DNA of 64,000 bases from Empedobacter tilapiae. GTDB lineage: Bacteria > Bacteroidota > Bacteroidia > Flavobacteriales > Weeksellaceae. The position numbers were made by a program, and so were the translations under genes. The notes below the pieces were generated by a model. It saw nothing but the letters and a program-made list of their open reading frames with translations, ran no database searches and was not told the DNA's origin. The DNA lies in assembly GCF_004785645.1 (NCBI RefSeq), contig NZ_SRPE01000014.1, positions 1-64,000 on the forward strand, read 5' to 3'. The stretch's first letter is position 1. Each line of letters begins with the position of its first letter. Shown piece after piece: positions 2,516-29,717 of the stretch.

Positions 2516-2852
2516 ATTAAATCTACCTCATTATTAATGCATTATATTAGATAAATTGCATTTACTTTTTTTACTATTTGATAATGAGTATCTAAAAAAA
2601 CAACTTACATTCTATATTTTCAGAATGTATTATTTCGGTATTGTCTAATGTTTCTTTTGTTATTTTCGAAGCCTAAAACTGCATTCAAAAATATAGCTTT
2701 TGATGAAGCAGAGAAAAGAATTCTAGTGATTAAAAAAATTTTCCTCCAAATGGAATCAAAATTAGTCCGTTTAATCCTTCATAGTTTTTTAAGATTTATT
2801 TAATTTTGCTTTATTACTAATTAGTCTAAATAGTATTTACTCAATAGAGCAC

Positions 2853-5186: not shown

Positions 5187-5200
5187 TCTTATGCAGTTTA

Positions 5201-5232
5201 AAAACCTCTGTTATTTAATAGAGGTTTTACTT
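5201..5232 (+). terminator. Intrinsic terminator of the TonB receptor gene
   Basis: AAAACCTCT (5201-5209) pairs with AGAGGTTTT (5220-5228) 15 nt after the stop codon. Confidence 0.75.
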
Positions 5233-5722: not shown

Positions 5723-6364
5723 ATGGCCGAAATTAAAAAAGGAATCCTTGGCGGATTTTCAGGAAAAGTAGGAACAGTGATTGGTGTCAACTGGCGTGGA
5801 AAGGATATTATCCGAAGTCTACCAAAAGCATCAAAAAAAGCCCCCACAGAGGAACAATTAATTCAACGGGTAAAGTTTAGGAAAACCATTGATTTTTTAC
5901 AACCATTGCGTTCTATCCAAAACAGGTATTTTGGGAATAAAGCAGGTAAACAATCGCGTTTTAACAATGCAACGTCTTATACCCTAACCAATGCTGTAGA
6001 AATGGTACAAGATTTACCTGTTATTATCGTAGCACGTGTTCTCATTACCAAAGGCGAATTGTTAGACTTTCAGCTTCCAGAGCTTGACGCTACAACAGCT
6101 GGTACATTTAATCTTAGTTGGGAAGACAATTCAGGACAAGGGAATGCAAAAGAAACGGATCTTGTAAACGTGGTTTGCTATTGTGAGGAACTGAATAGTT
6201 TCTACATTTCCGAAGAAATTGCAACCCGTGATATGATTGTAGCAAGTATTAATTTACCTACACCCTATCAAAACAAGGAAATTGATGTGTGGATCTATCT
6301 CAACACAGAGAAAAGAACACAAGCTAGTACCAGTACTTATTTAGGGAAACACGAAGTGTTATAA
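5723..6364 (+). CDS. DUF6266 family protein
   Basis: A 213-aa protein beginning MAEIKKGILGGFSGKVGTVIG, which I recognise as the DUF6266 N-terminus common in Bacteroidota. The first ~90 residues are basic (NWRGKDIIRSLPK, KFRKTIDFLQPL, FGNKAGKQSRFN) and the rest is predicted beta-rich. No signal peptide, membrane segment or catalytic motif. It is monocistronic, with its own strong terminator, and sits after an unusual array of phased short repeats. Function unknown. Confidence 0.8.
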   Translation: MAEIKKGILGGFSGKVGTVIGVNWRGKDIIRSLPKASKKAPTEEQLIQRVKFRKTIDFLQPLRSIQNRYFGNKAGKQSRFNNATSYTLTNAVEMVQDLPVIIVARVLITKGELLDFQLPELDATTAGTFNLSWEDNSGQGNAKETDLVNVVCYCEELNSFYISEEIATRDMIVASINLPTPYQNKEIDVWIYLNTEKRTQASTSTYLGKHEVL

Positions 6365-6401: not shown

Positions 6402-6453
6402 ATTACCGAGAATAAGGTTTTAGAAATAGAATTTTATTCTCGGTAATTTTTTA
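6402..6453 (+). terminator. Intrinsic terminator of the DUF6266 gene
   Basis: A 14-bp stem, ATTACCGAGAATAA (6402-6415) with TTATTCTCGGTAAT (6434-6447), followed by TTTTTTA. Confidence 0.8.
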
Positions 6454-6576: not shown

Positions 6577-7245
6577 CTAATATTGACTTTTAATTGTAAG
6601 AGCAATTGGAAAATGATGATCACTTTTAGGATAATTATCTAATGTTATTTGTTTACAATTATTTTTTGTTAGTATATGATCTAATTTATCACTGACTCCT
6701 TTATAAGAATTATCTAAAGGTATATCTCCAACTTCAAGATTTAAATCCCCTAAAAGAATTATATTTTGAGTACTAGGGTCAATACATCTTTTCCAAATAT
6801 CTATTGTTTCTTTAGCATACTCTTTCCAAGCTTCAGAATGTAAAAGATAAAAGTTGTAATTTTTATTATCTTTTAAAACCTCTATTTGAATGGGACATCT
6901 TAGATAATTACTATTTAAGTGATATATAAATTTATCTTCAAGAAAAAAATTGAGATTAGTGATTTTACAACTATTTTTCTCATATATAACTAAATAATAT
7001 CTATTCGAAGTACTAGCTCTTAGTGAGAACTTATTACTACACTCTGGAATTATTGAATATAAATATTGAGAATTTTCTAACACTTCTTTAACATCTTTCT
7101 CACAACCATTAAACTCTTGTAAAAAGATTAGATGTATATTTTTATTAAGTGCTATGTTAAAAATGTTTTTTAATCTTTGTTGGGATGATAAGCCATCTCT
7201 TTCTCCATAATAAATATTCCATGTTAAAACATCAATTGACGTCAT
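6577..7245 (-). CDS. Endonuclease/exonuclease/phosphatase (EEP) family protein
   Basis: A 222-aa protein with the full EEP active-site set: LTWN (Asn10), LQEF (Glu44), LLHS (His136), GDLN (Asp167, Asn169), LDH (Asp189) and SDHH (Ser208, Asp209, His210). The family includes DNase I-like nucleases and phospho(di)esterases; the substrate here cannot be told. There is no signal peptide. It is the last gene of the nine-gene minus-strand operon, 60 bp after the 768-aa gene, and its leader carries a diverged copy of a sequence also found before two other operon genes. The intact catalytic residues suggest an active enzyme, possibly an effector. Confidence 0.85.
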   Translation of the reverse strand: MTSIDVLTWNIYYGERDGLSSQQRLKNIFNIALNKNIHLIFLQEFNGCEKDVKEVLENSQYLYSIIPECSNKFSLRASTSNRYYLVIYEKNSCKITNLNFFLEDKFIYHLNSNYLRCPIQIEVLKDNKNYNFYLLHSEAWKEYAKETIDIWKRCIDPSTQNIILLGDLNLEVGDIPLDNSYKGVSDKLDHILTKNNCKQITLDNYPKSDHHFPIALTIKSQY

Positions 7246-7261
7246 GCTTAATTAAATTTAA

Positions 7262-7299
7262 ATTTTCCTTACTCTATTCGCTTTTCAGATTCCGCGTTT
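7262..7299 (-). repeat. Operon leader repeat, copy 3 (diverged)
   Basis: On the transcript strand it reads CGCGGAATCTGAAAAGCG followed by GAGTAAGG, about 24 nt before the EEP start codon. It aligns with copies 1 and 2 (19733-19795, 20122-20184), which sit at the same distance before other operon genes. Confidence 0.5.
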
Positions 7300-7305
7300 T
7301 TATAA

Positions 7306-9612
7306 TTAAGATTTTATATTGAAAATAACACGAGGTTGTTTGTATAAATAGTTATTGGCTGTAGTGACACTGTCTTCATTGGTTGATACAGAAATTATTT
7401 TGTCTTTATTACTTTTATAGTCCATACCAAAATGAGCATTTTCATTTTTTAGATACATTTCTATTTTAGAAAATGGCTTATCAGTAATGTATAAACGAAG
7501 CGTACTATTGATTGTGGTTACATAATGGAAATCATACGATTCATCAAGTTCTACAATCAAATGAGGCCAGTTTTTGATGGTTTGAGATTGAAGGAGAATA
7601 CCATAGTAACTGTTGTTGGCATTAAAAATAAACCAAAACTCATTTTTTATTATATCTAAGGTTTGTAAAAGAATTTGAAGTTCATTTTTATCTGATTCAG
7701 AAACATCTGTTTGAATCGCTATTTCACATTTTTCCTTAATTTCAGCTAAAAGAGTAGCAGAATTATTTTCTGATTTATTATCAGATAAATTATCCATAAG
7801 GTTTTTTAAATCTTCTTTAATGGATGAATTATTATCTAAATTAAAATTTCCAAATTCCTTAATTCTTTCATTTCTTTTTTTATTTAGAACTAGCTTTTCA
7901 AAATCTAAAATACTTAAATTTGGTCCAGCACTAAAAATTCCAAATAAGAAAGCTAAAATCCAAGAATTATCAATTTTAAAATATTGTAGAGACTCTTCTT
8001 TATTGAAATCTGCATGAGGTAATAAATAGTTAATTGGAAAATTTCTGAATCGTATCAACTCTGTAATATAATCTAATACCAACTGTGACACTTCTGGAGC
8101 TTTTGAGATAAAACTAGGTAGATGGCTATCTTTATTTTGATCCAGTATTAAGTTATGTAATTCTAAATCATATTTCCATTTTTTTAACTCTTGAAGAACT
8201 TTATTATCATTCATTATTAGCAGACGTCCTAATTGCCAAGCTACCGAATATGTCATATCATACATTTTCGTATCTTCATTAAAGAGAATTAAATAATCTG
8301 CATGATCAGGAATCGAATCATATAGTTGATGTTCAAATGTTGAGTAATTTTTTTCTTGATATTCCTTCTGATAATTATCCCTCCTTTCTTTTAAATAATT
8401 TAATATATCAAACGACGAGTTCCATTTTGTAAATGGTCCTTGATACCATGATACTATTTTACCACCAGCTTTAAGTTGGTGCTCTAACGGGACTTTTGCA
8501 GCTTCCAACAACCTAGAAATAGGGTCTTTATCAATTTTTAAATCACTCGCATTTTCTTTTAAAGCAGGTGATTTAATAAACGTTTTAAATGAATCTAAAT
8601 TTAGTTCATGTAAATATCCTTTTAGATTTTTACCATTATATTCTAAATATTCGATTATAAAGTTATTATCTACTTGTTCTTTTTCTAGTTGTTCAAATTC
8701 TTTTATTGCATTTTTATTAGACCACTTTTCCCATCGTAGTTTTCTATCCTTTAGATATTGTTCATTTTTTTCTATTAATTCTTTGAGTTCTGAATTCGCA
8801 AAAGATTTAATTTTATCTAAAATATCTATATTGGAATCTTTTAGATAACTTTTAAAAGAGTCAAACTTAGGGTGATTTCTTAATTTAGTAGAGTCAATTT
8901 GGTACAACTCAGAAGCAATACTTTCAAAAGACCATTCACTTAAAATAACACAAGTGTTTGAAATTTGATTTAAGTATTGAATCATTTCATATTTTCCTGA
9001 ATTTTCATTAGCATAATAACATATAAATGCTCTATATTTTGTATTCGGTTCAACAATTCTATTAGAGATAAGAATGGAAGTTTCTGTAGGTAGATTTAAG
9101 TCTTGAAGCTCTGTATGTTTTTGTACACGAACATGTGCCAGGTTCCCTATCAAATTAATAGGTGGATAAACTCCTTCTATTGGTTCTGAACGAGATAAGA
9201 TTTTTAATAGCTTAGGTTCTGTAGGAATTTCTAACGATCCTACTAAACTATTTGTATTAAATTCTTTGATAATGAATTCGCCTTCATTTATTTCGTCTTC
9301 TTTTAACAAGACTAAAAAGAGATAAGGTAATCTCTTACCAGAGCTTCTTACTTCGTATTCCCAAGGAAGTGTACTTCTCCTAAACTGAATATGTGGAAAG
9401 GTACCTGCAAAATTCCCTTTATGTTCTTGAGGAGGATATACCGTTAAAATTTCATCCTGAGGAATAATATGATTGTAACCTTCAACGTGAAAGACAATAT
9501 CCTTTTTACCCGTAGTACAAATATTATTTTCAAGTTGTACATTGATATTATATTGACCAGAAGCAATTGTTGGAATATTTGAAGGAGCAATTCCAATTGA
9601 TTTTTTTTCCAT
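7306..9612 (-). CDS. Uncharacterised 768-aa operon protein
   Basis: Soluble, no signal peptide. An N-terminal beta-rich region (1-230) contains LTVYPPQEHKGNFAGTFPHI and FRRSTLPWEY; I recall similar 'LPH...R.TLPWE' and 'YPP' segments in hypothetical proteins of other phyla, but cannot name a family. The middle (about 240-420) is helical and charged, and the C-terminus (about 640-768) is beta-rich. Its start lies 1 bp after the stop of the DUF6603-like gene, indicating translational coupling. Probably a structural partner of the 918- and 1288-aa proteins; function unknown. Confidence 0.75.
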   Translation of the reverse strand: MEKKSIGIAPSNIPTIASGQYNINVQLENNICTTGKKDIVFHVEGYNHIIPQDEILTVYPPQEHKGNFAGTFPHIQFRRSTLPWEYEVRSSGKRLPYLFLVLLKEDEINEGEFIIKEFNTNSLVGSLEIPTEPKLLKILSRSEPIEGVYPPINLIGNLAHVRVQKHTELQDLNLPTETSILISNRIVEPNTKYRAFICYYANENSGKYEMIQYLNQISNTCVILSEWSFESIASELYQIDSTKLRNHPKFDSFKSYLKDSNIDILDKIKSFANSELKELIEKNEQYLKDRKLRWEKWSNKNAIKEFEQLEKEQVDNNFIIEYLEYNGKNLKGYLHELNLDSFKTFIKSPALKENASDLKIDKDPISRLLEAAKVPLEHQLKAGGKIVSWYQGPFTKWNSSFDILNYLKERRDNYQKEYQEKNYSTFEHQLYDSIPDHADYLILFNEDTKMYDMTYSVAWQLGRLLIMNDNKVLQELKKWKYDLELHNLILDQNKDSHLPSFISKAPEVSQLVLDYITELIRFRNFPINYLLPHADFNKEESLQYFKIDNSWILAFLFGIFSAGPNLSILDFEKLVLNKKRNERIKEFGNFNLDNNSSIKEDLKNLMDNLSDNKSENNSATLLAEIKEKCEIAIQTDVSESDKNELQILLQTLDIIKNEFWFIFNANNSYYGILLQSQTIKNWPHLIVELDESYDFHYVTTINSTLRLYITDKPFSKIEMYLKNENAHFGMDYKSNKDKIISVSTNEDSVTTANNYLYKQPRVIFNIKS

Positions 9613-9613
9613 G

Positions 9614-12370
9614 TTATATTACTACTTTATATGTACCAAAAAATGATTCTTTGTATTTATAAGCATTAATATCATTTTCTAAGTCCGTTAAATCGATATC
9701 ATCTTCATTTAATATTCCAAAACCAATCATCGTACTATTATCTAATTTTTCTTTTCTATTTATAAAATTTATTTCGAGATTTTTATTATCTAAATGAATC
9801 TCTTTTTCCAAGGAGTCATATAAAGAGACTTCTACTTCTTTTATCTGTGAAATAACTTTTGAAAATTCCAGTTTTACCCCATTACAAACATTTTTTAATA
9901 AATTATCATTTGAAAGTGCCTCAGTTTCTGAAATGCTATTTTTTGTATTCCATATTGATTTAGGTACTGATCTATAAATTGGAGATAATACAAAAGATTT
10001 AAAATCTTTAGTTGCACCTTGAACTTCAAGTTTAAGTTTATTTGTAAGTTTATCCGATTCTGTAAATACTGGATATATAGGACTTGGTGTATTTAGTCGC
10101 TCTATATTTAATTGTGTATCATAAATATCAGTTATTTGAATATAAGTTTTTGGAATCTCAGTTATTGGAATCTCAGAATATACCTCTAGAGCAAATGTTT
10201 TTGGATTCACGACAATACATTCAGAACCATCAACTTTCTTTATTTTTTTAATTATACCAGAGGTGATATTATAAGAAATTATATTTTTTATTTCTGGTAG
10301 ATATGCTGAAATGAAATCAGATTGTGTAAGCGTTTTATTAATTGATGTATTGTGATTACCAAATTTAACTTCCAATTGATATCCTACTACTTTGAATACG
10401 GCTACTCCTTTAAAGTCTGGACCACAAATAAATAATTTTGCAGCTAAACTGAAAGAGCTATTAATGTTAAATAACCAAACATCTATTACAACTTTCGCAT
10501 ATATTTGCACGGAAACTTCTGCTTCGTAAAAAAATGGATTCCAATGAATTATAAAATCTACTTTTAATAAAATTCCAATTTCAGCATAAACTACCCCAGC
10601 GTTTAACTTAACTCTTAATCCTCCCTCAATACCAGCCATTATACAGCTAGGAGTCAAAGCAAAATAAGCTTTTCCATACAATTGTACAGGTCCCATGTTA
10701 AAGTCAAAACCTAATCTCGAAATATTATTTGGATAATGAGATGGAACGTTGAATTTAGGATGATATCCACCTATAGAAAAAACAAAATCACCTGAATTAC
10801 TTCCCTTTAGCCATATTCCTAAAGCAAAACCACCTGTTAATTTTAGCTGTGGCAATAAAATATAAGTATTATCTGTAAGTTGTCCTTGTGCTAAAAATAT
10901 CCCTTCATCCAAATCTGCACGCATTGAAAATGCAAATTCGAAATTATACACTCCTGGCATTTTCATTGTAGAAAGCCCTAAAAGATTAAATGATGTTTTA
11001 TTTCCAAATGCAATTGCAACGATTCCTGTAGTATAAATCATTTTATAAGAATCGAACTTGATACCAGCAACAATTACATAAGTATCTTCACAAGCAGGCA
11101 AATAACGATTTAAATCGGAAAATATCTTTTGAATACTATCTCCTTGTTTTAAACCTCCTTGATGAACCAATTTAACAAGTGGAAAATTTGGTACTTCGCT
11201 TATATTTGGCATTAAAAAATTTCTGTTCATACCAAATCCTAAAGCAAATCCATGAATATAGAATGCAGGATCTACAGGTATAGGAATACCAAGATAACCA
11301 AATGCAAATAATGAAGAATAAGTAGGGGTTTTAATGTAAGAGCCTATGGCTATAAGCTCAATCTTACCCATTCTGAAAGTTAATAAACCATTGTATTCTT
11401 CTTTATTATCTTTTATTTCTCTCAAAAATGCACCAGAAATCCCTAAAGTAGGTGTATCATAAACAATTGCCATTCCTTTTAAAGAAAATTCTATCTCATT
11501 CCATAGTTTTTCTAAAGAAAAGTTTTGGAAGACCTTGAATGGCACCTTTATAGCTAAACCAACCAGTTGTAAGCCAAATGTACCAATATTAAAATCTGCA
11601 GAAATAGCAATTTGTATAGCATCATTATTAACAATAGAAGGAACAATCTCGTTAATTTTAACTAAAGGCTGTTTTTCTACTGATGAAGGAGACGAAACTT
11701 TATTAGATTTTGGATTACTTTTAATATCATTTTTTATTGGTAAAGAAGGAATATTTATTCCACCTACATTAAAACCTGGATAAGTAATTTTATTCTCATC
11801 ATTTCCTGTTTTAAAAACAAGACCTGCGCTAAATGAATTTCCTAAATTTACTTGTTCATCATTAATCCAAATATTTTTGTTTACAAATTGCTTTTTAGTA
11901 TAATCAATTAATATGTTTTTGTTGTCATCTGATTGCTCAGATTTAGAAACATAAACCAGTTCTACATTACTAATAGCGTAGTCTTTCAGGTATTCTCCAA
12001 CTAAAGGAAGCTCTTTAAGACTAATTTCTTCTGCAATACCAACAGAAAATAATTTTATTTCTTTAGAAATTACACCTTGAATTTTAAATTTTTCATATTG
12101 AGCTGCAATTTGAAATGCAGTTATACTCTCTTTTTTATCTGATAATTTATATACACCAAAATTTAATTTTTCTGGTATAAAAGGAGTAATAACCTTTTGT
12201 ATTTCTCCTTCTTCTGCTAAGATTTCTTTTATATTTTCCTTAGCATTAGGTAGCTCACCTACAAGAGACATTGTGGAAAATTCTTCTTGATTAATGAGAC
12301 TCCCTCTAACTGTAAGGTCTACTTCTTTTACAGTTACATCTAGCGCTATTTGAACATTGGTTTTGGACAT
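9614..12370 (-). CDS. DUF6603-like large beta-rich protein
   Basis: A 918-aa protein. The core (about 250-700) has repeated amphipathic beta segments rich in Gly and aromatics. Examples are SIGGYHPKF, FDFNMGPVQLYGKAYFALTP, GFALGFGMN and FFYEAEVSVQIYAKV, which resemble the DUF6603 family as I remember it. No signal peptide, so it is not a conventional outer-membrane barrel, although the pattern is barrel- or shell-like. The C-terminal ~200 residues are less conserved-looking. It starts 21 bp after the collar-fibre gene and is tightly coupled to the 768-aa gene. Family call tentative; role unknown. Confidence 0.7.
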   Translation of the reverse strand: MSKTNVQIALDVTVKEVDLTVRGSLINQEEFSTMSLVGELPNAKENIKEILAEEGEIQKVITPFIPEKLNFGVYKLSDKKESITAFQIAAQYEKFKIQGVISKEIKLFSVGIAEEISLKELPLVGEYLKDYAISNVELVYVSKSEQSDDNKNILIDYTKKQFVNKNIWINDEQVNLGNSFSAGLVFKTGNDENKITYPGFNVGGINIPSLPIKNDIKSNPKSNKVSSPSSVEKQPLVKINEIVPSIVNNDAIQIAISADFNIGTFGLQLVGLAIKVPFKVFQNFSLEKLWNEIEFSLKGMAIVYDTPTLGISGAFLREIKDNKEEYNGLLTFRMGKIELIAIGSYIKTPTYSSLFAFGYLGIPIPVDPAFYIHGFALGFGMNRNFLMPNISEVPNFPLVKLVHQGGLKQGDSIQKIFSDLNRYLPACEDTYVIVAGIKFDSYKMIYTTGIVAIAFGNKTSFNLLGLSTMKMPGVYNFEFAFSMRADLDEGIFLAQGQLTDNTYILLPQLKLTGGFALGIWLKGSNSGDFVFSIGGYHPKFNVPSHYPNNISRLGFDFNMGPVQLYGKAYFALTPSCIMAGIEGGLRVKLNAGVVYAEIGILLKVDFIIHWNPFFYEAEVSVQIYAKVVIDVWLFNINSSFSLAAKLFICGPDFKGVAVFKVVGYQLEVKFGNHNTSINKTLTQSDFISAYLPEIKNIISYNITSGIIKKIKKVDGSECIVVNPKTFALEVYSEIPITEIPKTYIQITDIYDTQLNIERLNTPSPIYPVFTESDKLTNKLKLEVQGATKDFKSFVLSPIYRSVPKSIWNTKNSISETEALSNDNLLKNVCNGVKLEFSKVISQIKEVEVSLYDSLEKEIHLDNKNLEINFINRKEKLDNSTMIGFGILNEDDIDLTDLENDINAYKYKESFFGTYKVVI

Positions 12371-12391
12371 AGGAGAACTATAAAATCTTAA

Positions 12392-13204
12392 TTATTTAAC
12401 TTTCATGATGTAAGCTAATTGAATATGTTTTGGTACTATACTAAATGGTTTGGATATCATATTAGAAGAATTTCCATTTTCCGAACTTCCTGACGTTGTT
12501 AATCTTGATTTAAAATCATAATTATGATTATAATAGTATGGATAATTAGTACCAAAACCTCCAGAAGCTGCACCTTTTTGCGTAGGTATCACCCACGATT
12601 CATAATATCTATGATTATGATCAGGTAAATTTTCAACTTTAAGGGTAACTAGATCATCTCCACCCCAATCACGATTCTTGACAATAGAATGGGCTCCTCT
12701 GACAAACTTATCTTTTAAATCTGGCATCCAGTCATTTAGAAATTTATTGAAGTGACCATCGCACAAAGCCCAGCCATCAGGAATTCTATCACCATAAAAT
12801 GCCACAATAGTACCAATAGGAACCGAAACTATTTCAGATTGAATAGATACAATATTATCATTTTTGTCTTTATAAGATTGACTGATACATAATTTGTTTT
12901 TGATTTCAGTATTATCTTTAGAAATTATAATTAATTCTGTAGAATCTTTTACTACTTTTAATTCCGTACTTAAGAGTTCTATTTGTTGTTTTAATTTTAA
13001 GAATTCGGATGTTATTTTATCTATTGTAGCATCTTTTGATTTTAATGTATCGAAATTGGCATTATTTGTTGTTAGTTTGTCAATATTAGCATCTTTTGAC
13101 ATTAGATTATCGATATGAGCATGTAATTTTTCCTCCATTTCTCTTAAAATTTTAATTTGAATAATATACTCTTCCTGTTTTAATAAAGAATTTAACTTTC
13201 CCAT
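12392..13204 (-). CDS. Coiled-coil fibre with phage tail-collar domain
   Basis: A 270-aa protein. Residues ~20-95 are a coiled coil containing a 10-residue tandem repeat (SKDANIDKLT, TNNANFDTLK, SKDATIDKIT). Residues ~130-180 carry the tail-collar signature (VPIGTIVAFYGDRIPDGWALCDG, here in two pieces: VPIGTIVAFYG and IPDGWALCDG; then PDLKDKFVRGA). The end is a His/Tyr-rich tip with LPDHNH and IQLAYIMK. This is a short trimeric-fibre architecture. The ATG at 13204 overlaps the preceding gene by 53 bp and has AGGA upstream; an alternative ATG at 13138 would remove the overlap. Likely the adhesive or receptor-binding part of the operon's product. Confidence 0.8.
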   Translation of the reverse strand: MGKLNSLLKQEEYIIQIKILREMEEKLHAHIDNLMSKDANIDKLTTNNANFDTLKSKDATIDKITSEFLKLKQQIELLSTELKVVKDSTELIIISKDNTEIKNKLCISQSYKDKNDNIVSIQSEIVSVPIGTIVAFYGDRIPDGWALCDGHFNKFLNDWMPDLKDKFVRGAHSIVKNRDWGGDDLVTLKVENLPDHNHRYYESWVIPTQKGAASGGFGTNYPYYYNHNYDFKSRLTTSGSSENGNSSNMISKPFSIVPKHIQLAYIMKVK

Positions 13205-15275
13205 TTCTGTATCCTGGAATATTTCTGTATTCTAAATAAAAAGGATAAGAGCCAGAAGGGTTATTAATACCAGTATTATTTACTTTGATGTTGGATAATC
13301 TTATACTGATATTTTTTGCGGAAAAATTCTCATCAGAATAATATCTATAAATAATACTATTTAACAATAAATTAGTGATATCACCAAATAGTTGCTTTTC
13401 TTTAGATTCTACAACTAACTCGTCTTTAATCTTTCTATACTTTTCTATATATAGATTATTATTTAAGCTATTAGCTACTTCTTTTATGCAATTTGTTAAT
13501 TTAATAAAATTTTTCTCGTCTGCGATATCCTTAATAAGATGGTCTATTTTTTTTGAATAAAACGAATTTTGTTTTACTTCATTTAGTTTTATAGAAATAT
13601 TTTCCCAATTGTTTAAATTTAAGATCTCTTTAAAAATATATTTATTAAGACAGGATTCAAGGTTATTTCCAACTGCAATTTCTTCATTAAAAATTCCTTT
13701 ATAAAAAGCTTTATTCAGTTTTTCGCTATCGTAATTAATTTCTACGCTGTCTAAGTCCGTAAAATCGTTGGCTAACTTCAACCTATTAAATACCTGACAA
13801 TTAAATTTTGATCTTTCATATTTAGACAAACCCAGCAGTACATTTTCTGAAGTAATTTGCACCTCTGTAGTACTTAAAGAATCTTTTTTTAGAATATCAT
13901 TTATGTAAGGAGAAGATAGTGAAAATTTACTTTTAGAATTCAATTCAACAGGTATCTCCAAAACATTGATAATATTGATATTTATTAACTGCGATGTATT
14001 ATCATCTCCATTGTACAAAGTATCATTTCCAAAAACAAAAACGTCAAACGGACAAATATTTTTTCCTCTATTATCAATTACATCGAAGGTTTTGTCTATT
14101 ATAAGTGGATTGTTTTTTGTAAAGTTTTCTTCAAAATTATCATCATCTTTAACCAAGGTTAAATTGTAAATTTCTAATTGAAATAAAACACGTTCTAATT
14201 CAAGCAAATTAAGAATTTCTATGTTATTAAAGATAGCAGAAAGTTTATTCTCATTTATATTAGGATCAATTGTAAAACTTATTTCATCATTATTTTCATT
14301 TGAATCATCATTTTCATTTAGATCATTTGATGTATTTTTTAAAAAACCTTTTTTTACTCTAAGTATACCTCTGATTTTATTTCTATTTTCATCGTCTTTA
14401 ATTTGAAAATCACCTAGATTAAATTCAAATTTTATGGGTACAACTTCATTTTGTAGTATTAAGCTATTTGAATCATCATCATTGAAGAGATTAAAATCTA
14501 CATTTTCTAGCATTGTACTTTTAGATAACAATACGAGATGAGTTTCTATTAACGAATTAATTGTAGAAATAACTTCATCTTGCGCTACATTTTCAAAAAT
14601 AGAAAGATCAGCTATTTTAACACTTTGCTCATTTTTGTTAGCACCAAATAACAGACTAAAAATCTTTGTGTTTATTTTAGTACTTATGATAGGTTCTTTT
14701 GATATTAGCTGCTTTTCATCCGTTATATATAAATCGACAATTTGGTCTTTTTTTAAATGAAGGGTGCAGTTGTACCAAGTGTTTTTTCTAACCCCCGATT
14801 CTTTTGTATTTCCTCTTTTTTGTTCTATAAAAACCAATGAATAACTACCATTATCTTTCTTAATCTTTAAAGCATCATTTTCTTTCTGAGATTCTTGATC
14901 CGTTTTTTTTTCCAGTTCTTGATCTGCTACTTTATTAGGAATTAATTCTAAAAAATTAGCAGAATCACTATTTTCAAATCTTATAAAAAAATTAAACAAA
15001 ACATCTCCATTTTCAATAACACTATTAAAAACATCATTAAAACCAATTGTAATTTCTGCCTCTTTTTTTAATTCGATATATGATCCTTTATATTCATCAA
15101 AACTTGAGTCTAATTCTCCTATAGCTTTTATATCGACTGTAGTATATCTTGTTTTAATTAAATGTTGTTCTTTTTTACTAGAATTATCTTTATCACTCTC
15201 ATTGTTTTCATCAGAGGTAACAATTCCATTTTTAATGACATTATCTAAAGGAAAATAATATTTTAATTTTGCCAT
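13152..15275 (-). CDS. Uncharacterised 707-aa protein with LamG-like N-domain
   Basis: Starts MAKLKYYFPLDN. Residues ~45-235 alternate short beta strands around GSYIELKKEAEITI, NTWYNCTLHLKKDQIVDLYI and SVKIADLSIFENVAQDEVI, the pattern of a concanavalin/LamG jelly roll. The middle is strongly acidic (N/D/E-rich runs) and the C-terminus ends in a small beta region (GKVKFFIKTGRVYYSN). It begins 3 bp after the 1288-aa gene and overlaps the collar gene. No catalytic motif. Fold assignment is inferred from pattern only. Confidence 0.7.
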   Translation of the reverse strand: MAKLKYYFPLDNVIKNGIVTSDENNESDKDNSSKKEQHLIKTRYTTVDIKAIGELDSSFDEYKGSYIELKKEAEITIGFNDVFNSVIENGDVLFNFFIRFENSDSANFLELIPNKVADQELEKKTDQESQKENDALKIKKDNGSYSLVFIEQKRGNTKESGVRKNTWYNCTLHLKKDQIVDLYITDEKQLISKEPIISTKINTKIFSLLFGANKNEQSVKIADLSIFENVAQDEVISTINSLIETHLVLLSKSTMLENVDFNLFNDDDSNSLILQNEVVPIKFEFNLGDFQIKDDENRNKIRGILRVKKGFLKNTSNDLNENDDSNENNDEISFTIDPNINENKLSAIFNNIEILNLLELERVLFQLEIYNLTLVKDDDNFEENFTKNNPLIIDKTFDVIDNRGKNICPFDVFVFGNDTLYNGDDNTSQLININIINVLEIPVELNSKSKFSLSSPYINDILKKDSLSTTEVQITSENVLLGLSKYERSKFNCQVFNRLKLANDFTDLDSVEINYDSEKLNKAFYKGIFNEEIAVGNNLESCLNKYIFKEILNLNNWENISIKLNEVKQNSFYSKKIDHLIKDIADEKNFIKLTNCIKEVANSLNNNLYIEKYRKIKDELVVESKEKQLFGDITNLLLNSIIYRYYSDENFSAKNISIRLSNIKVNNTGINNPSGSYPFYLEYRNIPGYRNGKVKFFIKTGRVYYSN

Positions 15276-15278
15276 TGC

Positions 15279-18200
15279 TTATATTTTTGTGGATTTAATA
15301 GCTAACCAACCTTCTTTTAAAACCATTCTAGAGTTAGACGGTCTGTTAACATTAAATGGAGGAATAGACATTACGTTATTTTTAAATAATTCATATATTT
15401 CTAACTCCCTTTCATCTTTGTTTTCTTTATTGAATAATTCCATCCATTTTTCTTCGTTTATATAGAAGATATTGTCTTCTTTGTTTTGATTTTCATCGTA
15501 AATCAAAAACTCGTTCTCATCAAAAAACTTTTTATACCTATTAAATTGTCCTTGTTTCAATTCAATAGCTAAGTCTTGCGTTATCCGATTCTTTTTTAGT
15601 TCAGTTTTTATAGAATTATTTTCTAAAGATGGATTTTCGTCTTTTTTTGTTTTGTGTAGCTCGATCCAAGACCATCTGTAACGAGAATCTTTAGATAAAG
15701 ACATTTCTAATGATTCTTTTTTTGTTAAAATTGGAGCTGTTAGCATAGTTAGTTCTATTTTTTTTAATGCGTTTTTAATCTGGTCAAAAGGAATTTTGGT
15801 ACTAGAAACAGGTAGAAAACCAGTTTTTACATTTAAACTTCCTTTAGGATGCATTAAAACATATCTTTTACAAGAATTTCTGTTTTCATTTAATCTTAAA
15901 TAGTTTTTTTTATCATTCTTTTTAGAATTAATACCTGTATAAATTCCTTTTAAAAGAGAGCCATCCATTTCAAAATAAATTTCACTTTCTAAGTTTGGCA
16001 TTTTAGCCTCATTAGTGAATTCAATTTCTTTATAATATGAATCTAGATCACCATGCCAATAACCTAATACTCCATCATTATACTGATTTACATCTCCTAT
16101 AGACATCGGCATTTTAACACGATCATATTGTCTCTGATTATCATAAGTATTGATACTAATTTTTTCATCAAAATTTAAATCGTACAAAGCTTCACCCTTT
16201 GTATATAAATTTATATTAACTAATGTAATAGCAATTGGAATGGTTGAAATAGTTTCTAAAAGAGATGGATTACTATTATCTTCAGGAAAACAATTAGCCA
16301 TGGCATCCTGAGTATTCTTGATAAAAGCAGACATAAATTTAGTTTTTCTCTCTCCTTTTTTGCATTTAATTTTTATCCAATCGACAATCCTAGTTAAATG
16401 TATATTCTCAATAATCTCTTTATAATTTTCACCACTTTTTGCAATAGTAATTTCAAAAGGGGATGATTCCCAGTTACCACTATCATCAAGTGATCCTAAA
16501 TGTTTACCATTTGTATCGAAAAACTCTAGTTTTTGAGTTAAATAAAAAGGTATAATCCAACCTATTACTGGCGAAGAATGTTGGTTTGTACTTGTTACAT
16601 CAAAATCTATATCAACCGAAGCAGGCTGTAGATATCTTGGTGGAAGCTCAATCCACTGCGGTTTATTGTTTATCTTTTGATTTTGTGTTGTAAGTGTTTT
16701 TGTTGGTTGTATAATTATATTTCTTCCAAAGGAATCAACTATTCGTAAACTATTTAATCTAAATGCACCATTTCGAAAAGGGTTAAAAACAGAGTATTTA
16801 TTTGGTGTTAATAAATTTAAATTTTTCTTATTTGAAGTAAGTAAATCAGTAATTTCTTTAGCCAGATTTTGATGATCAGAAAAACCATTAGGAATTAATG
16901 GTAATACAGTTAACGCATTGCTTCTTTGTAATAATTGATTGTTAAAATCAGATAGTGTCAATTCTAAAACATCTGTTTTATTTAAATTATCTATAGCGTT
17001 ATTAATAACACCAACAATATTCTTATTTACTTTATTTTCAATTTTTTCACTATTTTCTTTTAAAGTATCTAATAGATGTTTTTTTACTGTATTCCCTACA
17101 AATGCATTACCATAATAGGTGTTAGAATTGGGCATGAAAGCAATATTACCTACATCATTATTTTTAATAATATCTGCATTAAGTTCATCTAGACCATAAG
17201 TGTTAGAAATAAAATCCTCATTAAAAATACCCGAGTTATTTATATAGTGCCCTTCTTTATTAGGTAAAAAACTAGCTTCCCATTCTACTTTGTAAGTAGT
17301 CCATTCATCAACTTTAATATTTTTTTGAAATAAAGGTTGATTTAATATGTCATTATTTGTAAACTCATCCCAAATATTATCAAATTTTACATTGATAATA
17401 TTATCTTTTCCATTCTGATTTTCTTCATTTTTATATTTATCTGAATACAAATTGAATATCGAATTTTCTTTTGAATTTTCTGTAGAAATAATTACACTTG
17501 GGGGCAATGATTCGTAGTAATCTGTTTTACTAATCTGAGAAAGATTAAGCTCTGAATCTATTTTTTTATTATATAATTCTTTTATTTTTAATATAATTTC
17601 ACTTTTCCCTTCTTCAGTTACACCTTTTTTACTAATTTTTAAAATTGCATTAACGAACTGAAAAGTTAAATATTTTTGATAGTAACCTTTCAATTTATTT
17701 TCGAATTCCTCTTTCGAAGTTTCTAGTTTACTTTCAAAAGTTCCAACTCTAGCTTTTAATTTTTTAATTTGAGAAATTAAAAGTTTAAGATCGCTTTTAA
17801 TCTTATTTATGTTTTTGTTTTTATTTACAAATAAAGCATTTAAATAGGTAGACCAATGAATATACAAACTTTCGAGTTCAGTATTCAATCTAAAACACTC
17901 AAGCTCATATTCATTTAATTGTCTATTTAAAAAATACAAATTTTCAGTGAGTTTATATTTTGAGTCTTTTTGTGTTAATTCATTAAAATTTGTTTTAATT
18001 TGAGATGAAATTTTCTCTATAATTTTTTCATTTACTGAAATTTCACTGTCAAATATCAATGTATTTAATATTCTAATAATTTCATCTGAATTGCTTTCTG
18101 TTATATTACTTTCATCTATTGTTTCATTTAAATTGTATGAAAAATTGGATACATCAATATCATACTCAACTACTTCATTATCAATATCATCACCATCACT

Positions 18201-19145
18201 AGCTACATTTATGTTATTCTTAGTTATATTGATAATATACTGTGTAGTCCCAGAAATTTTATTGAATTGTTTTTCGTGTCTTTTTATTCTTAATCGTGAA
18301 AGCCAATCTAACTTTAAGTCATTTAACTCGTCAAAATTTAATATAGATTCTATTTGCTCTTCTATCTTAATTTTATCTGTATCATTATTTTTATCCGTTA
18401 GTAATGCAACAAGCGTTTCCTGTAAAGAATTCGCAATAGAAACATCAAAATTTATTAATTTAGATTTTCCCGTAGATTCTTCTAGCTTAAATCGACCTGC
18501 GACAATAAATTCTTCTTTTTTATCGACCCAACCAATAATAGAATAAACATCATTCTCATTTCCATCGGGATCATGAAAACCAAAAATAGAACGACAGTTA
18601 GGGTAATGCACATCAAAAGACATAGAACCCCAGCCTAAGGCTGTGAGACTCTTTAAATAATTAGTATGTTTTGGTCTTGTGTTCCATTCATCAAGGCTAT
18701 ATCTTCTTCCAACATAATGAAAATTAAAATCTTTTCCTTCCTCACCTTCTACATACGTACAAGTATTATATTTAAATAATTTTTCGTCATATACATTCCA
18801 TATATAATCACTTTCTATAACATATTCTTTACCTGTACGTTCATTTTTAACATACCAACGATTAGGCGCAAGCGGAAGATTACCTTGCTCATCGAACTTT
18901 TTAAAATGAGCAGGTAATACAAAGTGTAAATGAACTCCCTTCTCCAGATAAATAGCATTATCATAAGAAAAAGGCCTAGGTATAATAGAATTTGTCTCTA
19001 AAGGTGTATTGGGATTTTCAAATACACCTTTTTCTTCATTCATCCAAGGTATATTTTCAAAACGAATATCTTGGCCGATAACTTGTTCTGGAGATTCTAA
19101 GTATAGCGCATTAATATGGAGAGGAAGTAATTTCATCTTAATCAA
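15279..19145 (-). CDS. Giant 1288-aa operon protein of unknown function
   Basis: The N-terminal 250 residues contain DNAIYLEKGVHLHFVLPAHF and LPLAPNRWYVKNE. I recall the same 'GVHLHW.LP...PNRW' theme in hypothetical proteins of actinobacteria and cyanobacteria, but no named family. Residues ~330-510 form a long charged coiled coil. The C-terminal half has beta-rich segments and AIKSTKI at the end. No signal peptide or membrane segment. Its ATG overlaps the 192-aa gene stop by 8 bp; a second ATG at 19136 would avoid this. Its size and coiled coil suggest a scaffold or baseplate-like component; this is inference. Confidence 0.75.
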   Translation of the reverse strand: MIKMKLLPLHINALYLESPEQVIGQDIRFENIPWMNEEKGVFENPNTPLETNSIIPRPFSYDNAIYLEKGVHLHFVLPAHFKKFDEQGNLPLAPNRWYVKNERTGKEYVIESDYIWNVYDEKLFKYNTCTYVEGEEGKDFNFHYVGRRYSLDEWNTRPKHTNYLKSLTALGWGSMSFDVHYPNCRSIFGFHDPDGNENDVYSIIGWVDKKEEFIVAGRFKLEESTGKSKLINFDVSIANSLQETLVALLTDKNNDTDKIKIEEQIESILNFDELNDLKLDWLSRLRIKRHEKQFNKISGTTQYIINITKNNINVASDGDDIDNEVVEYDIDVSNFSYNLNETIDESNITESNSDEIIRILNTLIFDSEISVNEKIIEKISSQIKTNFNELTQKDSKYKLTENLYFLNRQLNEYELECFRLNTELESLYIHWSTYLNALFVNKNKNINKIKSDLKLLISQIKKLKARVGTFESKLETSKEEFENKLKGYYQKYLTFQFVNAILKISKKGVTEEGKSEIILKIKELYNKKIDSELNLSQISKTDYYESLPPSVIISTENSKENSIFNLYSDKYKNEENQNGKDNIINVKFDNIWDEFTNNDILNQPLFQKNIKVDEWTTYKVEWEASFLPNKEGHYINNSGIFNEDFISNTYGLDELNADIIKNNDVGNIAFMPNSNTYYGNAFVGNTVKKHLLDTLKENSEKIENKVNKNIVGVINNAIDNLNKTDVLELTLSDFNNQLLQRSNALTVLPLIPNGFSDHQNLAKEITDLLTSNKKNLNLLTPNKYSVFNPFRNGAFRLNSLRIVDSFGRNIIIQPTKTLTTQNQKINNKPQWIELPPRYLQPASVDIDFDVTSTNQHSSPVIGWIIPFYLTQKLEFFDTNGKHLGSLDDSGNWESSPFEITIAKSGENYKEIIENIHLTRIVDWIKIKCKKGERKTKFMSAFIKNTQDAMANCFPEDNSNPSLLETISTIPIAITLVNINLYTKGEALYDLNFDEKISINTYDNQRQYDRVKMPMSIGDVNQYNDGVLGYWHGDLDSYYKEIEFTNEAKMPNLESEIYFEMDGSLLKGIYTGINSKKNDKKNYLRLNENRNSCKRYVLMHPKGSLNVKTGFLPVSSTKIPFDQIKNALKKIELTMLTAPILTKKESLEMSLSKDSRYRWSWIELHKTKKDENPSLENNSIKTELKKNRITQDLAIELKQGQFNRYKKFFDENEFLIYDENQNKEDNIFYINEEKWMELFNKENKDERELEIYELFKNNVMSIPPFNVNRPSNSRMVLKEGWLAIKSTKI

Positions 19146-19716
19146 TAACCTTTACAGTCGTTTCTAGTTGTTTAAAAATTTCTTCTGTTGAACCTAATTT
19201 CATCATTCTTTTAACAATAGTACGTTCAGTATTCCAAACAGAAAAACTAACAGCATTAATAGAAAACATTCCAGCTAAATCTGAGAAGAAATCCTTACTA
19301 TCTATACTTATAGATAAAGCATATTCCCATTCAGCTTTTTTATCTGTTGCTTTTAGGTCACTTCCATCCTCTTTACACTCAACCTCATTGTTATCAACTA
19401 CTTTATAATATGCTTTTTTGTATAAAAAGACAGTATCTAAATAGAATTTTATTTTATTGATATCAAAAGGTGAATCTTTTTTATTATTTTCCTTCAAATT
19501 ACCCTCTATCAACTTTTCAGTTTCCTTTTCATCTTTTCCAAATACTTTTTTAAAAGCATCTTTAATTTCTCCAATTGTAAATGATTCATTTGCTTCTACT
19601 GAAGTAGGTGTTAAAAGATATTCTTTTACAATAACTTTTTCTTTCTTTTCATTTTTTACAACTACTGCTAAATCTCTTTTTAAAAAAATAAGAGATACCC
19701 CTAATTGAAATTCCAT
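19138..19716 (-). CDS. Small uncharacterised operon protein (192 aa)
   Basis: A mixed alpha/beta protein rich in Lys and Glu, with no recognised motif. The N-terminus FQLGVSLIFLKRDLAVVVKN and C-terminus SFSVWNTERTIVKRMM look like edge strands and an amphipathic helix. It precedes the 1288-aa gene with an 8-bp overlap, so the two are probably made in fixed ratio. Its leader carries copy 1 of the operon leader repeat. Confidence 0.65.
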   Translation of the reverse strand: MEFQLGVSLIFLKRDLAVVVKNEKKEKVIVKEYLLTPTSVEANESFTIGEIKDAFKKVFGKDEKETEKLIEGNLKENNKKDSPFDINKIKFYLDTVFLYKKAYYKVVDNNEVECKEDGSDLKATDKKAEWEYALSISIDSKDFFSDLAGMFSINAVSFSVWNTERTIVKRMMKLGSTEEIFKQLETTVKVID

Positions 19717-19732
19717 AATTAAAATTTTATTT

Positions 19733-19795
19733 TATCCTACTCATCTGGCTTTTCGGAATACGCCCCGTTTAAATGGTTTCTGGACTCCATTTCTA
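19733..19795 (-). repeat. Operon leader repeat, copy 1
   Basis: On the transcript strand it runs from ATGGAGTCCAGAAACCAT through CGGGGCGTATTCCGAAAAGC to GAGTAGG, ending about 20 nt before the ATG at 19716. Copy 2 (20122-20184) differs at only a few positions. Copy 1 can encode 17 codons from ATGGAG, but copy 2 has a 1-nt insertion that breaks this frame, so the signal is conserved at nucleotide level. Confidence 0.65.
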
Positions 19796-19850
19796 TCTTA
19801 ATAAGTAAGATTTAATTCCTAACTGATAAAGGGTTTGATTTTAAAGACAA

Positions 19851-20108
19851 TTATCCATTTAATTTATCTGGACCAGTACACGCAAACTTATGCGGACCAA
19901 TTATATACTTAACCCTAAGTACTGTATCGGCATTAGTATTATTTGTCCCTTTCGAATTGTAAATTAATTCTTCACCTTCCTTAACTTCATGATGTCTATA
20001 CCACTCCTTTGTACAAACTACCCAACATTTCTCATCTAGAACTACTTCACGTTCAATTGATGTAACTGCTGCTTCATCTTTTCTATCATTAGTCATAATT
20101 GTTCCCAT
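19851..20108 (-). CDS. Small uncharacterised operon protein (85 aa)
   Basis: Contains LDEKCWVVCTKEWYRHHEVKE and RVKYIIGPHKFACTG: three cysteines, a Trp/His-rich centre and predicted short beta strands. It could be a small SH3-like or OB-like module, but nothing is recognised. It lies between the amidase and the 192-aa gene, with an operon leader repeat before and another after it. Real-gene status rests on its position, sensible composition and conserved leader. Confidence 0.6.
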   Translation of the reverse strand: MGTIMTNDRKDEAAVTSIEREVVLDEKCWVVCTKEWYRHHEVKEGEELIYNSKGTNNTNADTVLRVKYIIGPHKFACTGPDKLNG

Positions 20109-20121
20109 TTTTTTTAATATT

Positions 20122-20184
20122 TATCTTTCCCTACTCTTATGGCTTTTCGGAATACGCCCCGTTTGTAATGGTTTCTGATCTCCA
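20122..20184 (-). repeat. Operon leader repeat, copy 2
   Basis: Nearly identical to copy 1 over about 60 nt (CGGGGCGTATTCCGAAAAGC block exact), ending about 22 nt before the ATG at 20108. Confidence 0.65.
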
Positions 20185-20226
20185 TTTTATTTAAACAATT
20201 TTTGAAATATGAAAAAAGGAATAAGA

Positions 20227-21213
20227 TTAGTATTGTAAATATTTTTGATTTACCCATTTATCGTCCAATCCTATTTTTATCCAATTTTCTTTCTTTTCAT
20301 ATTCAAAAACTTCATCTCCTTTTTTCAAAACACCTATCAATTTATATTCTGATGAAGCTCCTATTCGTACATTAAGGGAAGGAGCTCCTACTATTGCTCT
20401 TTTTACCTTATTGGTATATTTTGAAGAAATCCAACACTCTTTATCTTGAGATATTTTATACCAATTATCTTTTGTATCAACTATTCTAATGATTGCGCCA
20501 TAATAAACTGCAGCTACATCTTTACTTATATTATAGTTAACATTTGGTCCAGTTCTTACATTTAGAGATTGAGTATTAATCATTGCGTAATCACAATTTG
20601 TAGGTAAAACAGGATTATAATTATGTGTTTCTAATTCTTTTATAACTAGTGGTAAAAAACTATTTTTAAAGTTTACTACTTTATTACCTCCAAAAAAATT
20701 AGTTCCTGGGCAAGTCTTATTACAACCATTACCATCATTACGAGTTCCATTATCTAGTCGAAACCAATGATGATATACAATTGATTTATCAGAAGGTTGA
20801 AGCCCAAACTTTTTACACAAAATTGCTGTTACTGAAATAATTGTATTAGCTTGTTGTGCTGTCATCACATCTGCTCCTATATCAAAATTTCCTACATTTT
20901 CTATACATATCGCGTGTGCATTTTGAAAGCTAATACATGCAGGGGATTTTTCAAAAGATCGTCCTGTTACTATACTGCCATCAGGAAAAACACTAATATG
21001 CTGGCCGATATCTGCCCATCCATTTTGTTGTACATGGCATTCTTTCATGGCCTTTTGTCTTTCAAAATGATTACTTCCATCAAAATGTTTATAATTTGGT
21101 ATGTAGGTGTGATGTTGTTGTATTTGACATATGGTTCTTGAAATTCGTATCGTTTTGATCCAATTTCTAAACTCTTCTACTGTCATTTTATAAAAGCCAT
21201 ATTTGTTTTCCAT
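20227..21213 (-). CDS. N-acetylmuramoyl-L-alanine amidase (PGRP/Amidase_2) with two SH3 domains
   Basis: A 328-aa protein. The zinc amidase domain (about 1-195) has QHHTY (His34/35), YHHWFR (His148/149) and KTCPGTNF (Cys168), the expected zinc ligands of the T7-lysozyme/PGRP fold. Two bacterial SH3 repeats follow (about 207-270, 273-328), each with LNVRTG or LNVRIG. It would cleave the MurNAc-L-Ala bond of peptidoglycan. There is no signal peptide, which is lysin-like and fits delivery by lysis or a particle rather than Sec export. It is the first gene of the nine-gene operon. Confidence 0.9.
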   Translation of the reverse strand: MENKYGFYKMTVEEFRNWIKTIRISRTICQIQQHHTYIPNYKHFDGSNHFERQKAMKECHVQQNGWADIGQHISVFPDGSIVTGRSFEKSPACISFQNAHAICIENVGNFDIGADVMTAQQANTIISVTAILCKKFGLQPSDKSIVYHHWFRLDNGTRNDGNGCNKTCPGTNFFGGNKVVNFKNSFLPLVIKELETHNYNPVLPTNCDYAMINTQSLNVRTGPNVNYNISKDVAAVYYGAIIRIVDTKDNWYKISQDKECWISSKYTNKVKRAIVGAPSLNVRIGASSEYKLIGVLKKGDEVFEYEKKENWIKIGLDDKWVNQKYLQY

Positions 21214-24096: not shown

Positions 24097-24270
24097 TTTT
24101 CTCGTTTTTAGTTTATAGTGTAATAATATTCAATATTAAACTTTTTTTTTGACATTTTAAAATATAGAAAAACTAAGAGAATAATTAAAACTCTAAATTC
24201 AATTTCGAAAAGCTTTTTAAAGTTTTTATTTTTAACCACATATGTTTATTGATTTCTTTTTTAGCTCGTT

Positions 24271-24571
24271 TCAATGGATTGAAGCTCGTTTGCAAATTGT
24301 ATGTCGACTTTAAAACTCTTATTTACAGTAATCTCGACTTGTCAGCAATGACGGTTTTAAAATTCGTTATTATAAGTGAATTTGAATATTGAAAAAGAAT
24401 TAAAAAAACGGCATTAAAACTCACACGTTAAGAAAATGGTTGAATAAAACGTAAAAAAGGTTTTAGCCCGTAGGGTTTTTAAAATCTTTAGTGGAATGAG
24501 AACATTTTTAGTAGAGAGGTTTACAGCCAAGAGTTTTTTGATTACTTTTTTGCTCATAAAAAAGTGACATT
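24271..24571. repeat. Dispersed repeat R1 (copy A) with its 5' extension
   Basis: The core at 24410-24571 recurs at 34027-34184, 34583-34740, 49053-49211 and 60855-61015. It has hairpin 1 (24456-24489; AAAGGTTTTA...CCC-gta-GGG...TAAAATCTTT) and a terminator-like hairpin 2 (GATTAC...GTGAC region). The 5' part (24271-24409) is also repeated before copies B and C. 24097-24270 is AT-rich with nothing recognised. Confidence 0.7.
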
Positions 24572-24611
24572 AAAGAAAAGGAATACATATACCCTTCTGG
24601 AAACCTTGATG

Positions 24612-24658
24612 AAAAAACATTTGAAATTAAAAGGAGAAGCTCTAGTGGAGCTTAGGTA
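24612..24658. repeat. Dispersed repeat R2, copy 1
   Basis: About 47 bp containing GGAGAAGCTCTAGTGGAGCT, a hairpin AAGCTC/GAGCTT. Other copies are at 24733-24779, 34238-34284 and 48560-48606. Confidence 0.7.
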
Positions 24659-24732
24659 CATACGTTCATTTTTACTCATGAGTTATTATTGTTTTCAAAT
24701 GAATTCATATTCCCTTCGGGGAAGTCTTGACA

Positions 24733-24779
24733 CAAAAACATTTGAGATTAAGAGGAGAAGCTCCAGTGGAGCTTAGGTA
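24733..24779. repeat. Dispersed repeat R2, copy 2
   Basis: As copy 1, with GGAGAAGCTCCAGTGGAGCT at its centre. The two copies here are 121 bp apart. Confidence 0.7.
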
Positions 24780-24848
24780 CATTTTTAAACTTTTACCTTA
24801 ATGCAAAGTCTGTGCTAACAGAGTATGTGATTACAAAACATCAAGTCT

Positions 24849-24976
24849 GTGCCTACAAGTCGGTCAATAACGACTACTCGCTAAATGCTTTAAATCATTC
24901 ACATATAAAATGTGAACAGTAAATCATTTTTAACGCTCACTACGTCGAATTGACACTCGACTCTTCAGCAATGACG
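24849..24976. repeat. Dispersed repeat R3, copy 1 (structured)
   Basis: About 128 bp that recur at 48609-48736. Two stems are conserved: AGTCG/CGACT and TTCACAT/ATGTGAA. In copy 2 the latter is TTCGCAT/ATGCGAA, a paired A-T to G-C change. 24977-25054 shows nothing further. Confidence 0.65.
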
Positions 24977-29700: not shown

Positions 29701-29717
29701 ATAAACAATAATAAATC

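Follow-up and report, generated by a model that had tools for sequence, protein, structure and literature searches.

We analysed a 64,000-nt stretch of Empedobacter tilapiae DNA (contig NZ_SRPE01000014.1, positions 1 to 64,000; hereafter the window) whose minus strand carries a cluster of genes that includes those for three large proteins of 918, 768 and 1288 amino acids. The families of these proteins, hereafter D (DUF6603), B and A, respectively, are tightly linked in genomes. At many loci D-B-A lies in a run with a fibre or adhesin gene, and an enzyme gene that differs by genome often adjoins it. The best explanation is that D-B-A is a widespread, horizontally transferred module and that the cluster in the window is one instance of it. 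Three large families that have no credible solved relative by sequence are kept together next to fibres and changing enzymes.

Linkage of the D, B and A families

An alignment of D was scanned over 84,980 species genomes. The scan gave 132 pattern matches, 128 of which were confirmed, and the best 80 were kept; loci from Bacteroidota genomes, from seven of nine plasmid records and from genome G364 were added. Over all collected loci the tallies were 103 for D, 95 for B and 81 for A. Four duplicate loci were removed before counting, leaving 99, among which near-copies remain (e.g. L051/L052 and L098/L100). B was found downstream of D on the same strand at 91 of the 99 loci, within 150 bp in 88 of these and with a median gap of 3 bp; in many genomes it is split into two adjacent genes. 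The third protein is A at 77 loci (57 times 3′ and 20 times 5′ of D) and another protein, A2, at 9, so that one or the other accompanies D at 86 of 99 loci; neither was found at 13. Of the eight loci with no detected B, four (L089, L091, L107 and L115) end less than 1 kb from D.

In a reciprocal test, 395 Bacteroidota genomes (the same draw, by handles) were searched with each family. D was detected in 17 of them (16 over the cut-off), B in 11 and A in 9. Every genome with A had B and every genome with B had D, and no match was further than about 10 kb from D. In several genomes with D only, the A2 subtype is present with a divergent B; this B was missed by the profile and found by an iterated hidden Markov model (HMM). 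A single-sequence search for A over 60 genomes found it only in the window's own genome.

Homology was undetected in A-A2, A-B, B-A2, A-D and B-D comparisons (hhalign probabilities at most 0.14%). Searches by sequence among solved structures revealed no relative of D or B and, for A, one chance-level designed protein (E = 0.56). Pfam analysis of 37 A members gave Kelch/propeller matches in one member, nothing else at E 0.01, and no toxin family. The A2 proteins are giants of 1512–3225 amino acids as listed (some are cut by the locus end) that replace A at L023, L033–L036, L038–L040 and L047. At three A2 loci, L034, L036 and L038, a subtilase gene is located just 5′ of D.

Distribution across phyla

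Twelve bacterial phylum-level groups are represented among the 80 genome loci. D, B and A occur together from Chryseobacterium to Streptomyces, and D with B reaches haloarchaea, two plasmids of which carry D, both with B and A2. The D tree requires 26 phylum changes against a minimum of 11; its supported branches alone imply nine or more for Bacteroidota and seven or more for Pseudomonadota. The tree was built by a quick method, and more than one phylum change is no proof of transfer.

The original prediction, which was made from the window's letters alone, had placed segments of the three large proteins in hypothetical proteins of other phyla and proposed a mobile, conserved system. Such relatives are real and cross-phylum. 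Rather than being scattered they co-occur, with fibre and enzyme genes, in what is a conserved, horizontally spread and apparently non-viral system.

Fibre and enzyme genes next to the core

Collar fibres were identified in the window (with PHROGs) and at L048, L055, L056 and L072. The fibre of L070 contains Laminin_G_3 (E = 1.2e-16), an S74 chaperone is present at L029, L061 and L075 (sub-threshold at L083), and L108 has a beta-propeller fibre. By single-linkage clustering, fibre family Y was found in 37 loci. Sub-threshold matches to baseplate Gp10_C in the L055 and L056 fibres, and a Dit-like match in L029, would be consistent with a phage origin of the fibre part.

A hand-chosen sample of 51 same-strand genes located just 5′ of D (gap of about 150 bp or less) was compared with Pfam at E 0.01. 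Lactamase_B was matched by 12 genes, Lipase_3 by 5, Peptidase_S8 by 3, DUF4135 and Exo_endo_phos by 2 each, and ribosome-inactivating protein (RIP) and GIY-YIG by 1 each, for a total of 26 of 51 if no gene was counted twice. For the control, one random gene lying more than 2.5 kb away from the core was taken at each of 51 loci, out of 66 that were usable; these 51 genes gave 105 families, 25 of which were viewed, and none had more than two members.

Genes of the endonuclease/exonuclease/phosphatase (EEP) family, to which one enzyme of the window belongs, occur in three other D-B loci, L093, L102 and L119, with two of the three matches below the Pfam cut-off. The window EEP sits 3′ of B, as does that of L102, where a 1311-aa glycosyltransferase-like gene (14793–18728, several glycosyltransferase domains) lies between B and EEP in a run of overlapping genes. 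In a small comparison the window and L102 enzymes were 24% identical (E = 9.5e-10), and the L093 and L119 enzymes gave no significant match to the window EEP. In the P. polymyxa locus a gene resembling phospholipase D is the second gene 3′ of A. A secreted or lysis-released particle carrying the EEP enzyme had been suggested for the window. EEP as cargo is possible, given the EEP-family genes at these three loci and an RNA element found before the window EEP (see below); a particle is hypothetical.

Two observations concern individual genes just 5′ of D. In Streptosporangium (L084, 7451–8530) this gene resembles a ribosome-inactivating protein (E = 6.5e-4, below the Pfam cut-off). In two Frankiaceae loci (L109, 7806–8468, and L118, 2329–3159) the genes share a HHxVPYSKLR-type motif that is HNH-like by eye and has no Pfam match.

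The gene cluster of the window

The cluster consists of the following elements, in order of position:

6577–7245, minus strand: EEP222, EEP-family enzyme (PF03372, E = 1.2e-10), candidate cargo or effector
7266–7298, minus strand: DUF805b RNA (RF02914), 38.5 bits against a gathering score of 35.6, 21 nt upstream of the EEP start
7306–9612, minus strand: U768 (B), core protein of a family without name, one chain here and two adjacent chains in many genomes
9614–12370, minus strand: D918 (D), DUF6603 core protein (PF20248, E = 1.8e-102), predicted large beta-sheet
12392–13204, minus strand: C270, coiled-coil and tail-collar fibre protein (phrog_1800, E = 3.1e-17), adhesin/tip slot
13152–15275, minus strand: U707 (L), overlapping C270 by 53 bp, HMM matches in 10 loci
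15279–19145, minus strand: U1288 (A), core protein of a family without name, present in 81 loci
19138–19716, minus strand: U192, small protein, first gene of the conserved operon
19730–19795, minus strand: DUF805 RNA (RF03081), 74.1 bits against a gathering score of 51.1, leader 14 nt before U192
19851–20108, minus strand: U85, small protein whose sole links to the cluster are its position and a DUF805 RNA of its own
20124–20190, minus strand: DUF805 RNA (RF03081), 72.4 bits against a gathering score of 51.1, leader 16 nt before U85
20227–21213, minus strand: AMI328, Amidase_2 and SH3 protein, doubtful member

All nine open reading frames (ORFs) were verified at these coordinates. Profile scans named four of the nine proteins: the EEP enzyme, the DUF6603 protein (344 bits against a curated cut-off of 27), the Amidase_2-SH3 protein and, through PHROGs, the tail-collar fibre, whose match to Pfam Collar is sub-threshold (3.9e-4; 20.8 against 24 bits). 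All four had been named in the original prediction. Its description of a LamG-like protein is unsupported for U707 and for the U707 homologue of L048, although a fibre of another D locus, L070, matches Laminin_G_3. No match above Pfam or NCBIfam cut-offs, and nothing convincing in PHROGs, was obtained for A, B, U707, U192 or U85. EEP222 shows N, E, GDLN and SDH motifs, presumably those of the enzyme family.

The cluster had been described as a closely spaced nine-gene operon. The spacing is indeed tight from U192 to B, as computed from the coordinates: U192 and A overlap by 8 bp, A and U707 are 3 bp apart, U707 and C270 overlap by 53 bp, and gaps of 21 and 1 bp separate C270 from D and D from B. 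B and EEP are 60 bp apart. Upstream of the run, however, gaps of 118 bp (AMI328-U85) and 134 bp (U85-U192) are found, both of which contain DUF805 RNA elements.

The conserved unit is also smaller than the nine-gene cluster and comprises six genes. The order U192-A-U707-C270-D-B, on one strand, is complete in seven Chryseobacterium loci (L048–L054), whose D proteins are 59–63% identical over the best segment. U192 homologues (E < 1e-99) occupy the same place in all seven, as do C270 homologues, with Collar above the cut-off in L048 (2.4e-6). Gene-by-gene lists of L048, L049, L050, L052 and L053 show that the flanking genes vary between loci. The run includes neither U85 nor the amidase nor EEP. 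Among all ORFs of the examined loci, AMI328 and U85 had no relative at E 1e-5 and EEP222 had one, in L102. Since the amidase has no such relative, its proposed role in the lysis release of a particle lacks comparative support and was rejected. A single protein of 727–731 amino acids matches both U707 and the collar protein at L025, L055 and L056 (G364, C. takakiae and Pedobacter BAL39).

A degenerate prophage or tailocin remnant that retained fibre and lysin genes would explain the collar fibre and the lysin-like Amidase_2 gene, and could draw further on the sub-threshold Gp10_C and Dit-like matches at other loci and, in the P. polymyxa plasmid, on a pair of baseplate-V genes that lie 5′ of D at a distance of about 9 kb. 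We consider this very improbable. As originally predicted, capsid, terminase, portal, sheath and tube profiles matched none of the nine proteins, and PHROGs gave only fibre/tail-fibre and lysis matches and weak unknowns. The single holin profile matched (by C270, E = 0.088) was taken as chance. Nor were core genes found in viral genomes. The window D had no match in 50,697 phage records (tblastn), and neither did A and B of L113; pattern scans of viral_contigs, which have limited sensitivity, gave 0, 3 and 1 stretches, none of them confirmed. In addition, linked D-B-A is maintained across twelve phyla and the amidase is not conserved. The P. polymyxa plasmid (L022, 5382–10377) carries, about 8–14 kb 5′ of D, two genes annotated as phage baseplate assembly protein V, a DUF4280 gene and a GH-E nuclease gene, which may be either a separate VgrG-like cluster or linked to the D locus.

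RNA leaders

The 3.7-Mb genome contains two RF03081 matches (E 1e-13), those before U192 and U85 (150 of 658 first-look candidates were scored). The best genome match to RF02914 lies before EEP, and one other above the cut-off is elsewhere (150 of 2441 candidates scored). DUF805 RNAs before U85 and U192, together with DUF805b RNA before EEP, point to a shared regulon, to which the three genes probably belong. In Chryseobacterium, six of the seven loci with the unit were scanned, and all six have a DUF805 RNA ahead of the operon; none was found upstream of AMI328 in the window. A promoter scan gave no more matches than in shuffles.

In genomes of the family (L133–L160) the DUF805 RNA is often located 10–20 nt before unrelated small genes, including those for 182–183-aa and 440-aa proteins. 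The former we take to be PixA/AidA-like inclusion proteins. The RNA and the small genes downstream of it may constitute a regulon in these genomes.

Predicted structure of D

An AlphaFold model of D918 has a mean pLDDT of 77.6, with residues from about 291 to 670 mostly at 85–97. DUF6603 is predicted to form a large, partly amphipathic beta-sheet. When the model was compared with known folds, the top match was apolipoprotein B (apoB100; Z 16.9, root-mean-square deviation (rmsd) 10.0, 283 aligned residues, 4% identity), closely followed by outer-membrane barrels with an rmsd of about 11. C-terminal strands of the model are amphipathic. A crude hydropathy scan detected no strongly hydrophobic stretch at the N-terminus of D, and the family is present in Gram-positives and archaea.

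The model raises the possibility of a lipid-handling, storage or surface structure that serves the producing cell, in which an apoB-like DUF6603 sheet would enclose lipid, with the fibre as its anchor and with lipases, proteases and EEP phosphatases as processing enzymes. The apoB100 match, the amphipathic strands and the Lipase_3 genes beside D (5 of the 51 genes) agree with this, as do the presumably inclusion-body-like genes that DUF805 RNA precedes in relatives. GIY-YIG, RIP-like and MBL (metallo-beta-lactamase) neighbours are ill-suited to lipid work, however, and the patchy cross-phylum spread, archaea included, suggests an accessory trait. We find this reading unlikely.

Proposed function of the D-B-A core

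The linkage of the families is observed directly; from it, and from the genes alongside, we infer a function. It is close to an even call, tilted slightly to the negative, that D-B-A forms a fibre-bearing, lipid- or membrane-binding scaffold or complex that carries an exchangeable enzyme. D, B and A would assemble in the cytoplasm into one complex and have no signal peptides. The large beta-sheet of D, amphipathic in its C-terminal part, would bind lipid or insert into a membrane. A fibre (coiled coil and collar, S74-matured or lectin-like tip) would attach the complex to the surface of a target. Exchangeable cargo would be supplied by the enzyme: EEP here, and MBL, lipase, subtilase, GIY-YIG or RIP-like elsewhere. 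Target recognition is suggested by the fibre slot, membrane or lipid contact by the D sheet and an exchangeable activity by the enzyme slot. On this basis an effector-carrying complex is favoured over intracellular defence, over a lipid-handling or surface structure serving the producer and over a core whose neighbours hitch-hike. A more specific version is doubtful: D-B-A may be a new class of sheathless, capsidless effector-delivery complex, present in bacteria and haloarchaea, in which an apoB-like lipid-binding D and two partner giants would form a scaffold, possibly a lipid-coated particle. The scaffold would bear a phage-type adhesin fibre together with a single exchangeable enzyme, and in some Weeksellaceae a structured RNA leader would control it.

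Several findings weigh against an effector-carrying complex. As to the core, L068, L069, L097 and L101 have no detected B although 3.6–7 kb of sequence is available there, and they are either true exceptions or missed cases. As to the sheet, 13 of 23 D strands tested have no significant difference between their faces, and fold matches at an rmsd of 10 or more might mean only "large beta-sheet". As to the RNA leader, DUF805 RNA is non-specific, being present in 22 of 120 family genomes (20 over the cut-off) before various genes; G364 has D-B-A, yet its three DUF805 RNA copies lie elsewhere, none near D. As to the enzyme slot, the RIP, GIY-YIG, L093 and L119 EEP and some MBL matches (e.g. L104) are below Pfam cut-offs, and the gene 5′ of D is a fibre gene in the window and in loci of the Chryseobacterium type. 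The control includes one MBL relative (an ODP-family beta-lactamase) among the 25 families viewed, so single enzyme matches in it are possible.

Two further findings of this kind speak for another explanation. Among the 51 genes 5′ of D, about 25 match none of the counted enzyme families and one is a histidine kinase, and in none of the seven Chryseobacterium loci does the six-gene run contain an enzyme. Both would be expected if only D-B-A were a unit, e.g. a cell-surface or biosynthetic complex, and the enzymes hitch-hiked in mobile islands, an explanation that may overlap with the lipid or surface structure considered above. Against it, MBL, lipase and subtilase genes reach 12, 5 and 3 of 51 while no control family exceeds two members, and EEP-family genes adjoin distantly related cores (L093, L119, L102 and the window). 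We regard hitch-hiking as less likely than either the lipid structure or the defence role discussed next.

The MBL genes of the slot resemble effectors of defence systems. In PADLOC the L061 gene is similar to LmuA (1.5e-19), to MBL associated with reverse transcriptase (RT) (1.5e-14) and to Avs1a (1.3e-10), and the MBL gene beside D at L029 also matches defence effector profiles. Nucleases, lipases and proteases also act as defence effectors. D-B-A could therefore be an intracellular anti-phage conflict system that senses infection, with the adjacent enzyme killing or arresting the cell, and the patchy, horizontally spread distribution of D would suit it. Such a role seems improbable, as the seven window proteins from EEP to U192 have no PADLOC match. 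Moreover, fibre, collar, S74-chaperone and lectin domains generally mark extracellular recognition rather than sensing inside the cell.

Comparison with known systems

Polymorphic toxin systems likewise combine a conserved carrier, exchangeable enzymes and horizontal spread. The enzymes seen beside D-B-A are, in contrast, separate genes, the carrier is made of three uncharacterized families, and the nine window proteins match no known carrier family. Polymorphic toxin systems are the subject of PMC3482391. Extracellular contractile injection systems, tailocins and type VI secretion systems are analogous in their phage-type fibres and hydrolytic cargo, but the nine proteins gave no match to sheath, tube, spike, baseplate or ATPase profiles. 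With respect to apolipoprotein B and large lipid transfer proteins, the D model has its best Z to apoB100; at 4% identity and an rmsd of 10, and with outer-membrane barrels close behind, no kinship is claimed. The MBL genes at L029 and L061 resemble effectors of Lamassu (LmuA), Avs1 and DRT-associated systems, whereas PADLOC gave 0 matches for seven window proteins. The DUF805 RNA motif is a known element with two window matches over the gathering score, one of which leads the operon U192-A-L-C-D-B.

The core fits none of the known systems tested. In the open literature, to which subscription papers and preprints do not belong, no paper naming DUF6603, PF20248, DUF805 RNA or DUF805b was found; a prior description under another name may exist in literature beyond the reach of this search. 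Should D-B-A prove to be a complex for effector delivery, it would represent a solution distinct from contractile systems, Tc toxins and polymorphic toxins; the orphan domain DUF6603 would then have a function and DUF805, an orphan RNA, possibly a role. Direct tests are feasible, because several carriers are named cultured strains; cultured carriers include Chryseobacterium gambrini and Algoriphagus locisalis, the second of which has a lipase in the enzyme slot.

Surroundings of the cluster

The G+C content of the cluster is 25–30%, not sharply distinct within the first 40 kb (23–39%). A TonB-receptor gene (2687–5229) has 94% DNA identity to the same-genus genome G003; elsewhere in the first 24 kb, G003 gives short matches at 68–84%. 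In an empty-site comparison with G003 (59.7 kb fetched), the region from 5.3 to 24.3 kb had just two matches, one at 68% over about 350 bp (5855–6196) and one of 51 bp (6404–6451), and exact borders of the cluster were thus not found. A DUF6266 protein at 5723–6364 (PF19781, E = 6e-36) faces the cluster across a terminator-like hairpin (6402–6447).

Between long ORFs of the window a family of dispersed repeats is located (24257–25031, 33963–34756, 48529–49293 and 60806–61007), with 202-nt copies that are 70–88% alike; it also matches several places in G003. At 28764–29732 there are 99-bp direct repeats, partly tandem and with two identical copies, that overlap short ORFs of doubtful reality.
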